The notes beneath the pieces were generated by a model, which searched no databases, had not been told where the DNA came from, and saw only the letters and a program-made list of their open reading frames with translations. Below are positions 3,564 to 20,525 of a stretch of DNA of 32,480 bases, piece after piece. The position numbers and the translations under genes were made by a program. Position 1 is the first letter of the stretch; the number at the start of each line of letters is the position of its first letter. The stretch covers positions 1 through 32,480 of the forward strand of contig JACUTR010000009.1 in assembly GCA_014859735.1 (NCBI GenBank), given 5' to 3'. The DNA comes from Candidatus Methanophagales archaeon. Lineage in GTDB: Archaea > Halobacteriota > Syntropharchaeia > Alkanophagales > Methanospirareceae.

Positions 3564-3624
3564 GTTTTTGCATCGACTAACGGGGCTCCGCCCCGTTGAC
3601 CCCGAAAACCCTGTAAGGGTTTAA
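3564..3624 (+). repeat. R1 palindromic repeat, copy A
   Basis: The core has two hairpins. ACGGGGC-TCC-GCCCCGT is followed by TGACCCCGAA, then AACCCT-GTA-AGGGTT. It shares the leading TTTTTGCA..ACTAACGGGG with copy B at 15634-15696 in the opposite orientation. Its last bases (GGGTTTAAT) contain the TAA stop of the convergent minus-strand DUF1638 gene. Other copies are at 20480-20525 and, expanded, inside nnr at 12794-12874. Confidence 0.9.
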
Positions 3625-4466
3625 TCAGTAAGCCAGTTATGTACCTTTACCGCGTTCAGTGTCTCGTACATAATCTTTGATGACCCTTTTACCAGTTTTA
3701 TTTCCAGGTTAAACTTTCGAGCGAAGTTCTTAACCGTTTGTGCGTATTCCCTTTCTTTCATGTCCGCTTTGGAATACCATATCTTCACGACCCGGTAATA
3801 ATGATTCTTCAGGATCTTTATTATGTGTGGCGTGTCAGCCGCTGCATGCCGGTTCATCCGTCCTGCTATGATAGTGATAGAGGATTCTAAAATTACCTGT
3901 GGCTCCTTTATGAGTGCCGCCCCAACCGGGGTCATGAAAAACGTCCCTACTTCTTCGTTCAGCAACGCCTGAACCTTCTCTCTCCCGAGCGCAATTTCGA
4001 TACAATTGTTCAATATCTCGCCTTCTTCGTCTCGCGGCATCACTACGGGAACAGGTGCCTCATTGAGTACGCGCTCCATTGCTCCCACAGAGCTGCCACA
4101 CAGCCCGTAGCCCAGCACAATAACATCCACCACCAACCCCATTCTCTTTATACTATCCTCAATCTCCACCAGCAGGTTGTCCGGATAATCATGCATCTGC
4201 AGCTCCAGCACGTTAATAATCACGGACTCGTTAAGGTCCCGTTCATGGATTTCCCGCGCTATCTTCTCCAGCGTCTTCTCTTTTACTACCAAGCCGTCCT
4301 CCGCGAACTCACTCGAAAATCGGTCGATTAGTGTCTGATGCCGTACCGTAATCACCGAATTGGTGGTTTCCGGCAGCACAAAAAATACCTCTTCCACACC
4401 GGATTTCCTAACCACCTCTTTTATCTCTCTTCTTAAAATCTCGCAGGTGATGATCCCGATGTGCAT
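3621..4466 (-). CDS. DUF1638 family protein
   Basis: This 281-residue protein begins MHIGIITCEILRREI, and residues 116-127 read VIVLGYGLCGSS. The C near the N-terminus and the GYGLCG motif are typical of DUF1638, a family seen mostly in methanogens and other anaerobes, often near corrinoid methyltransferase genes. Its biochemical role is not established. The conserved cysteines suggest metal or cofactor binding. It lies 76 bp downstream of rpl5 on the same strand and may be read from the cdc48-rps4e-rpl5 unit. Its stop codon lies in the end of repeat R1 copy A. The only possible Shine-Dalgarno sequence is purine-rich (GAGAAGGAGAAG, reverse strand, about 4475-4490). Confidence 0.8.
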   Translation of the reverse strand: MHIGIITCEILRREIKEVVRKSGVEEVFFVLPETTNSVITVRHQTLIDRFSSEFAEDGLVVKEKTLEKIAREIHERDLNESVIINVLELQMHDYPDNLLVEIEDSIKRMGLVVDVIVLGYGLCGSSVGAMERVLNEAPVPVVMPRDEEGEILNNCIEIALGREKVQALLNEEVGTFFMTPVGAALIKEPQVILESSITIIAGRMNRHAAADTPHIIKILKNHYYRVVKIWYSKADMKEREYAQTVKNFARKFNLEIKLVKGSSKIMYETLNAVKVHNWLTD

Positions 4467-12565: not shown

Positions 12566-14233
12566 ATGAAAGAAGAAGCATATATCACCTCAGAGGAGAT
12601 GGCTGCGCTGGATGAGAATTGCACCTTCTTCGGGCTTTCTCCGTTACAACTCATGGAAAATGCCGGTGCTCAGGTTGCGAATGAAGTAAAAAAGCAATTT
12701 GAAGGCGAAGAGAGAGGAGTGAAAGTCACGATACTCGCAGGCAAGGGCAATAATGGTGGCGATGCGTTTGCTGCCGCACGGCATCTGCACGGTAAACCCT
12801 TACTGAGCCTTTCAGGCTCGCGGGAACGCGGGCAGAGCCCGCGATTTCGGGGTCAACGGGGCGGAGCACCGTTATTTGACGTGAAGATACTATTGATTGG
12901 GCGTTCACCTGAGCTGAGAACCGAAGAGACGAAGAGGAACTGGCGCATAGTAAAGGAAAGTGGTTATGAGATCGAAGAACTAACCGATTCTTCGGAGTTA
13001 AAGGCAGCCGCGGCAGTTCTCAACGCGTCAGATGTGATAATCGATGCGATCTTCGGCACTGGTGTAAGAGGTAGGATACGAGAGCCGGAAGCGACGGCAA
13101 TCGATTTGATCAATGGATCGCAGGCATTCGTTATTGCGGTAGACGTTCCTTCGGGGTTAGATCCTGATACCGGTGAAGCGGACAAAGCGGTAAAAGCGAA
13201 TCTCACCGTCACGTTCCATAAAGCGAAACATGGCTTACTGAAGAAAGCTGCTGCGGACTATGTCGGTGAACTGGTGGTTGCGGACATAGGAATTCCTGAA
13301 GAAATGGAACGGCTGGCGGGGCCTGGAGATGTGAGGATGGTGGTAAAGAGAAACGCACGAAGCCATAAAGGTGATAATGGCCGTGTGCTCATCGTGGGCG
13401 GAGGCCCCTTTTTCGGTGCGCCCACGTTAGCTGCGCTTGCTGCGCTCCGCGCGGGTGCGGACTGGGTAACCATCGCGGCGCCTAGAAGTGTTTCTGCCAT
13501 AATCTCTTCGTTATCACCCAATTTGATTGTCCACCCCCTTTCTTCTGATATCTTAGTGGAGAAGGACGTGCCTGTGGTATCGAATTTGATCAAACAGCAT
13601 GACGTGGTGGTGCTCGGCATGGGATTAGGAGCAGACGCGGAGACGAAAAGAGCAGCGAGATTGATAATCGAGGATGAAGCGAGTAAGAGGGTGGTCGTCG
13701 ATGCGGATGGCTTTTATGGATTACATCTGCCAATTCAAACTTTAAGAAAGTTTGATCAACAAACTTTTAGAAAAAGTTTGATCAAAAATGCTGCGCATGC
13801 TTCGCTGGAAGAGAAGCTCGCTATCATAACGCCGCATGCCGGTGAGTTCGCGAAGATGGAGGTCGGCGGTGAGGGAGTAACCGTACCTCCAGAAGATAGG
13901 ATGGAAGAGCGGATAGATTTTGTCAGTGAATTTTCACGGCTCAATAACGTTGTTACCTTGATGAAAGGTCCGACCGATATTATATCAGACGGGACTCGTG
14001 TGAAGCTCAACCGAACGGGGAATGCTGGAATGACGGTTGGCGGTACGGGCGATGTATTAGCCGGTATAACCGGCGCGTTCTTCGCTATCACTTCTGACCC
14101 GTTCAAAGCAGCGACTGCTGCGGCGTTTGTCAATGGTACTGCGGGCGATCTCGCATTTGAAGAGAAAGGGTATGGGTTGCTTGCTACCGACGTCGTAGAG
14201 AATATTCCAACGGTTATAAAGGATTTTAGATAA
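12566..14233 (+). CDS. nnr: Bifunctional NAD(P)HX epimerase/dehydratase with two repeat-derived insertions
   Basis: Repairs hydrated NADH/NADPH. The N-terminal YjeF_N epimerase domain (about 1-245) has LMENAGAQVANE, GKGNNGGDAFAAARHL, FGTGVRG and VDVPSGLDPDTG. The C-terminal ribokinase-like dehydratase domain (about 260-555) has SHKGDNGRVLIVGGG, ITPHAGEF and MTVGGTGDVLAG with the catalytic Asp (D496). Two segments do not belong to the family. Residues 77-103, between HLHG and FDVKILLIG, are Gly/Arg/Ser-rich and come exactly from an expanded R1 palindromic repeat (81 bp, 27 codons). Residues about 391-408 come from two tandem R2 repeats. Both keep the frame, so the protein may still work; both lie at likely surface loops. 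Confidence 0.93.
   Translation: MKEEAYITSEEMAALDENCTFFGLSPLQLMENAGAQVANEVKKQFEGEERGVKVTILAGKGNNGGDAFAAARHLHGKPLLSLSGSRERGQSPRFRGQRGGAPLFDVKILLIGRSPELRTEETKRNWRIVKESGYEIEELTDSSELKAAAAVLNASDVIIDAIFGTGVRGRIREPEATAIDLINGSQAFVIAVDVPSGLDPDTGEADKAVKANLTVTFHKAKHGLLKKAAADYVGELVVADIGIPEEMERLAGPGDVRMVVKRNARSHKGDNGRVLIVGGGPFFGAPTLAALAALRAGADWVTIAAPRSVSAIISSLSPNLIVHPLSSDILVEKDVPVVSNLIKQHDVVVLGMGLGADAETKRAARLIIEDEASKRVVVDADGFYGLHLPIQTLRKFDQQTFRKSLIKNAAHASLEEKLAIITPHAGEFAKMEVGGEGVTVPPEDRMEERIDFVSEFSRLNNVVTLMKGPTDIISDGTRVKLNRTGNAGMTVGGTGDVLAGITGAFFAITSDPFKAATAAAFVNGTAGDLAFEEKGYGLLATDVVENIPTVIKDFR
12794..12874 (+). repeat. R1 repeat, expanded copy inserted in frame in nnr
   Basis: It starts TAAACCCTTAC like copy B and ends CGGGGTCAACGGGGCGGAG plus CACCGTTA. 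The normal second hairpin is replaced by two extra hairpins (AGCCT-TTC-AGGCT and GCGGGC-AGA-GCCCGC). The end hairpin has lost one pair (CACCG for CCCCG). The insertion is 81 bp, a multiple of three with no stop in the nnr frame. Confidence 0.88.
13737..13788 (+). repeat. R2 repeat, tandem pair in frame in nnr
   Basis: Two adjacent units, AAACTTTAAGAAAGTTTGAT (then CAA) and AAACTTTTAGAAAAAGTTTG (then ATCAAA). Each is a short inverted repeat ending in GATCAA. They encode roughly QTLRKFDQQTFRKSLIKN between DADGFYGLHLPI and the normal ITPHAGEF segment of the dehydratase domain. Confidence 0.85.
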
Positions 14234-15633: not shown

Positions 15634-15696
15634 AGTAAACCCTTACAGGGTTTTCGGGGTCAACGGGGCGAAGCCCCGTTAGTAGGTGCAAAAAAT
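15634..15696 (-). repeat. R1 palindromic repeat, copy B
   Basis: On the minus strand it reads TTTTTTGCACCTACTAACGG, then the hairpin ACGGGGC-TTC-GCCCCGT, TGACCCCGAA, and AACCCT-GTA-AGGGTT. It differs from copy A in the loop (TTC for TCC) and in two bases of the leader. It begins immediately after the stop codon of the minus-strand gene at 15696. Confidence 0.9.
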
Positions 15697-20479: not shown

Positions 20480-20525
20480 TAACGGGGCTCCGCCCCGTTG
20501 ACCCCGCAAGCCCTGTAAGGGCTTA
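20480..20525 (+). repeat. R1 palindromic repeat, copy C
   Basis: ACGGGGC-TCC-GCCCCGT, TGACCCCGCA, then AGCCCT-GTA-AGGGCT. Compared with copies A and B the second stem has a paired change (A-T to G-C) that keeps pairing. It lies 26 bases before the ribH start, between ribC and ribH, where it could shape the mRNA. Confidence 0.9.

Follow-up and report, generated by a model that had tools for sequence, protein, structure and literature searches.

Is the stretch of 27 codons that separates HLHG from FDVKILL in the epimerase domain of this archaeal Nnr a genuine part of the enzyme, or a repeat that has come to be read as protein? The gene in question, nnr (positions 12566-14233, forward strand), encodes a bifunctional NAD(P)H-hydrate epimerase/dehydratase of 555 amino acids, assigned by Pfam and TIGRFAM matches, and lies in a 32,480-nucleotide stretch (the window) of the genome under study (G000), a draft metagenome assembly of 1.68 Mb in 150 contigs from an anaerobic methane-oxidizing archaeon (ANME-1, Methanophagales). 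The initial annotation proposed that positions 12794-12874 (forward strand; residues 77-103, KPLLSLSGSRERGQSPRFRGQRGGAPL) are an in-frame copy of a dispersed palindromic repeat, R1. The segment is exactly 81 bp long, contains no stop and preserves the frame. A whole-genome search identified copies at C38:38710, C72:9594, and C38:43906 with 98-99% identity over 80-81 bp (E 5e-35 to 4e-34), so that the resemblance is not due to chance. Furthermore, the last 30 bp match some 20 short R1 copies in the genome at 93-97%, and the single-strand fold z of the nnr copy (-4.0) compares with -4.1 to -5.1 in others. Both the sequence and its near-identical dispersed copies thus bear out the proposal, and the end hairpin has indeed lost one pair, as had been stated (AACGGGGCGGAGCACCGTT vs. 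AACGGGGCGGAGCCCCGTT). The two additional hairpins are instead not a gain of the nnr copy itself, as was first thought, but common to an 81-bp R1 subfamily with the near-identical members L002, L003, and L004.

The basic unit of R1 is 42-46 bp, reaching at least 81 bp when nested. In its short form (42-45 bp as inserted), the hairpin AARCCCTTACAGGGYTT is followed by the spacer KCGGGGTC and a second hairpin, AACGGGGCGRAGCCCCGTT or GTGGGGCGGAGCCCCAC; the whole, TAAACCCTTACAGGGTTTTCGGGGTCAACGGGGCGRAGCCCCGTTA, is a discrete unit within unrelated flanks. The two hairpins fold separately (z about -4.3), and the ends of the element do not pair with each other. Stems remain paired through double changes, such as AAA/TTT to AAG/CTT and AAC/GTT to GTG/CAC; in a covariation test 17 cells were altered on both sides, a value reached by none of 500 shuffles. 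Judging from sequence alone, the 81-bp subfamily apparently arose when the short form received another two-hairpin unit within its first hairpin. The window holds three further copies, all of the short form, detected with a covariance model: 3578-3623 (reverse strand, 46 bp, 76.7 bits), the intergenic 15636-15681 (forward strand, 75.6 bits, fold z = -4.3), and the intergenic 20480-20525 (reverse strand, 75.6 bits, fold z = -4.3), the last with the stem variant AAGCCC...GGGCTT. The leading TAA of the first, also intergenic, provides the stop codon of the reverse-strand gene at 3621-4466.

The same covariance model gave 116 hits in 97 clusters across the genome. For each cluster, open frames and Pfam matches were inspected in the stretches around the hits. 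In this search for intragenic copies, which the initial annotation had called for, 30 of the 97 clusters proved to lie in frame within coding genes, 29 of them backed by Pfam matches of the host and one, in the L003 gene, by relatives only. The hosts are nnr, PolD large subunit, CTP synthase, CarB, enolase, ArgRS, ABCE1, chorismate synthase, TruA, TruD, Pus10, PurL, DNA polymerase IV (two), a diphthamide-synthase-domain protein, an HdrA-like oxidoreductase, an Lhr-type helicase, a MobA-like transferase, a PLP enzyme, a RACo-like protein, a glycogen-debranching-like protein, a RIO kinase, ribosomal protein S3 (in the C-terminal tail), a radical-SAM/TRAM protein, a LysA-like decarboxylase, a ThiI/NFACT protein, a TraB-family protein, a DUF1015 protein, MoaA (at a contig edge), and the L003 gene. 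One DNA polymerase IV gene carries two short copies, both in frame (L026 and L027; C22:11342 and 12272). Where R1 sits at the start of a gene (CarS, TorD-like, TFB, precorrin methylase, GDPD), it was left out of the count because the true start may be downstream.

Several of the six frames of R1 contain stops; all verified intragenic copies are stop-free and keep the frame of the host. Twenty are read as KPLQG..., five as SPYRA... or NPYRV..., and one in the TAA frame, where the stop has been altered. Since a criterion based on open frames would by itself conceal broken genes, the other 67 clusters were submitted to a rough two-flank test, which revealed no gene broken by R1. Five candidates from this test were read through, and none resembles a broken gene; each seems to be a non-coding shadow frame, the point where two genes meet, or a hypothetical gene with its frame intact. 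Similarly, an "NAD-GH" match on the strand opposite to L004 was taken as a shadow frame and excluded from the 30.

Comparison with related genomes provides additional clues. In all four genomes of the genus, R1 occupies exactly the same position of Nnr, though in different forms: the short 45-bp form in G002 and G003 (15 residues), the 81-bp form in G000 (27 residues), and the 81-bp form with a short copy nested in it in G001 (41 residues). Outside this genus, both in the rest of the family and in the outgroups, the position shows HLHG-FDVK or its equivalent, with no element. Thus the 27-residue segment is absent from every other genus of the family or class examined, and the finding that would have refuted the initial annotation, the same segment in relatives devoid of R1, was not encountered among the relatives compared. 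Elsewhere in the gene, G006 has a reverse-oriented R1, in frame, in a different linker, and G003, G014, and G016 have a copy at the start of nnr. A contig titled Candidatus Nitrosotalea (L118; DYFG01000097.1) encodes an Nnr 86-92% identical to the ANME-1 protein; this public record seems to be mislabelled or mixed.

Thirteen host genes besides nnr were compared by alignment with their counterparts in congeners and in other genera, using a concatenated query of the joined flanks and fetched stretches (PurL of G002 was left out, as the query fell on Pus10 and gave no usable alignment). For all 14 genes, nnr included, at least one relative lacks the element at the same codon position. Single short units account for a net insertion of 42 or 45 bp, and the elements in enolase and ArgRS are partial. 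Junctions include those of PALP (GAA|AATAGG), ABCE1 (TATATA|AAGGGCG), and PurL (CAAAT|ATGAGG), and no target duplication longer than about 1 bp is visible against the empty alleles in PALP, ABCE1, PurL, TruA, or the L003 gene. The latter repeats the series seen in nnr, being empty in G001 and occupied by the short form in G002, the 81-bp form in G000, and the 81-bp form with a nested copy in G003. The species tree is (G001,(G003,(G002,G000))). The PALP gene (L009) has an identical element in G000 and G001 and is empty in G002 and G003, while TruD (L051) is filled in G000 and G001, shows element sequence at a contig end in G003, and in G002 keeps the unmodified sequence replaced elsewhere. These two patterns depart from the species tree and require recurrence, gene flow, or loss as an explanation.

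Could R1 have been recruited by its hosts, its basic Gly/Pro-rich loops or its mRNA hairpins being of benefit in regulation, RNA stability, or surface interactions? There is a sense-strand bias, with 26 of the 30 intragenic copies in sense orientation and 4 in antisense (p = 3e-5 against 0.5; 0.0015 against 0.6 sense open frames). The compensatory changes in the stems point the same way, as does a short form identical between genera. However, an active or converting repeat would look equally homogeneous, the host genes are functionally unrelated, and presence in a given gene is patchy among species, with clean empty alleles; in CarB and PurL the insertion was found in G000 alone among the genomes compared. 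We thus consider recruitment improbable. In another scenario R1 would be removed before or during translation, by intron-like splicing or by ribosome bypass as with the byp elements of yeast mitochondria, leaving a normal protein. The presence of stable hairpins within genes as conserved as those of PolD, ABCE1, and enolase makes this worth considering, but removal requires neither an open frame nor a length that preserves it, and the rough two-flank test turned up no intragenic copy out of frame; moreover, the partial copies of enolase and ArgRS would have to be removed as well. There is very little to recommend this scenario. Finally, an assembly or binning artefact, or the chance likeness of an ordinary lineage-specific loop, has practically no standing: misassembly is common at repeats and this is a draft of 150 contigs, yet three independently assembled congeners have the nnr site occupied in different forms, 98-99% identical copies exist elsewhere, and the frame is preserved in 30 genes.

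The most likely explanation remains insertion of a selfish element that the host protein tolerates, and the Nnr protein itself can be examined in this light. Its domains are well supported (YjeF_N, 1.4e-43; Carb_kinase, 7e-49; TIGR00196 and TIGR00197 above cut-offs), and the motifs GNNGGD, DVPSGLD, and GGTGDVLAG are all intact. Outside the insert, dN/dS is 0.165 against G002 and 0.169 against G001, a sequence-based estimate (about 0.17) by which nnr is under purifying selection. In an AlphaFold model (mean pLDDT 80), whose fold resembles the solved Nnr TM0922, confidence falls below 50 only at residues 1-3, 77-101, and 391-415. The last two correspond to two repeat insertions, each between regular structural elements, and residues 77-101 form a loop joining a helix to a strand. 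The R1 segment is thus predicted to be a disordered loop, in line with the surface loop envisaged initially. Low pLDDT is only partial evidence of disorder here, given that few aligned sequences span the inserts, and structure prediction covers this one host, with no biochemistry.

The second insertion, at approximately 13734-13799 (forward strand; about residues 391-411), amends the initial annotation. It is an AT-rich palindromic repeat (AAACTTT...GATCAA; AAACTTTAAGAAAGTTTGATCAACAAACTTTTAGAAAAAGTTTGATCAAAAA) with 22 matches genome-wide, is in frame, is unrelated to R1, and is missing from G002 and most other genera. A copy of R1 is nested inside this repeat in the congener G001, and likewise at C125:12392.

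Taken together, we put forward, with a probability of roughly 0.9, that the nnr segment is R1, a selfish, non-autonomous two-hairpin element of ANME-1 that works in the manner of Rickettsia palindromic elements (RPEs) and is tolerated as a disordered peptide. R1 would spread through the genome; that it is inserted in open genes, its net length being a multiple of three and its frame open, is directly observed. Translation of the insert, its exposure as a disordered loop, and the continued function of the host enzyme are all inferred, since there are no protein or transcript data and the genomes are metagenome assemblies; selection would purge only those insertions that break frame or fold. Further R1 copies are found inside existing ones, and new insertions into resident copies, or conversion between copies, may lengthen the segment stepwise, from 15 to 27 to 41 residues in nnr across species.

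No mobilizing enzyme for R1 was found. Of the 51 genomes of the family, 39 contain R1, with as many as 125 matches; of 15 outgroup genomes, two have it, each as a single hit. These hits, in genomes outside the ANME-1 family but of the same phylum (G035:C1:580555-580598) and the same class (G029:C164:3736-3779), are high-scoring, and either horizontal transfer or contamination is possible. The R1-rich genomes G000, G001, and G005 have no HUH transposase (Pfam Y1_Tnp, PF01797), G002 and G003 do have one, and a reverse transcriptase is missing from G000 and G002; neither enzyme correlates with R1 copy number, and both were rejected as candidate movers. A bolder hypothesis, which we hold to be doubtful, is that R1 constitutes a novel kind of active mobile system: two-hairpin DNA of 42-45 bp that lacks terminal inverted repeats, leaves no target duplication, has no recognizable mobilizing enzyme, re-enters the same codon positions, and inserts preferentially into its own copies. 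If so, the housekeeping proteins of ANME-1 would grow stepwise by translated nested elements, and the recurrence at the same site in PALP and TruD would be the product of targeting, not of loss or gene flow.

In-frame palindromic elements are established in Rickettsia and Wolbachia, and in Rickettsia the host enzyme Gmk was shown to be active despite its insert (PMC2229807, PMC3767692, PMC10969869, PMC2996958). The Rickettsia elements, already named as a precedent in the initial annotation, remain one, with the amendment that palindromic repeats with coding potential had been reported in an archaeon, Methanocaldococcus jannaschii (Suyama 2005, FEBS Lett 579:5281, as cited in PMC2229807 and PMC2996958). 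Similarly to R1, the RPE and Wolbachia elements are dispersed palindromes found in intergenic regions and in frame in unrelated conserved genes, and share orthologous sites between related species; they are tolerated in unstructured regions, as is inferred for R1 (PMC2229807, PMC3767692, PMC2996958). In contrast, the alphaproteobacterial RPEs measure about 100-150 bp and carry terminal inverted repeats, whereas R1 is a 42-46-bp tandem of two G+C-rich hairpins that grows by nesting in ANME-1 archaea. R1 therefore does not belong to the RPE families proper on size and terminal inverted repeats (only architecture was compared). Nevertheless, R1 is a multicopy dispersed palindrome inserted in frame in conserved, unrelated genes with element-free orthologs, and if, as the Nnr model suggests, its peptide lies in an exposed unstructured region of a working protein, it qualifies functionally as a protein-coding palindromic element; it probably works as RPE-like elements do but differs from RPE in size and architecture. 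The M. jannaschii elements are also archaeal palindromic repeats, some fused in frame to protein genes; they belong to another archaeal lineage, and the Suyama study reportedly involved few intragenic cases only, compared with 30 in the ANME-1 genome.

REP/BIME sequences and MITEs are likewise short, non-autonomous, hairpin-forming, and high-copy, but they lie for the most part between genes. The terminal inverted repeats and target-site duplications typical of MITEs are not seen for R1, and REPs are usually accompanied by a Y1 transposase in the same genome, which G000 lacks. Thus, R1 fits neither a classical MITE nor, in G000, a REP with its own transposase. In the literature searched, with subscription papers and preprints outside its scope, we found no description of these repeats in ANME-1/Methanophagales, and a search on in-frame archaeal MITEs brought up none either.

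In-frame palindromic elements have so far been seen mainly as a trait of reduced intracellular Rickettsiales, besides the small methanogen case. R1 represents the same phenomenon in free-living, environmentally important archaea, affecting no fewer than 30 genes in a single genome of 1.68 Mb, among them those of the PolD large subunit, ABCE1, and enolase. The proteins of ANME-1 thus probably carry pieces of parasitic DNA as floppy loops, translation being inferred, and gene models and structures from this group should be viewed with caution for repeat-derived loops. Given that filled and empty sites are polymorphic at the species level, the birth, nesting, and loss of R1 can be traced directly, making it a natural experiment on the gain of protein segments and a route to an unknown mechanism of mobility.
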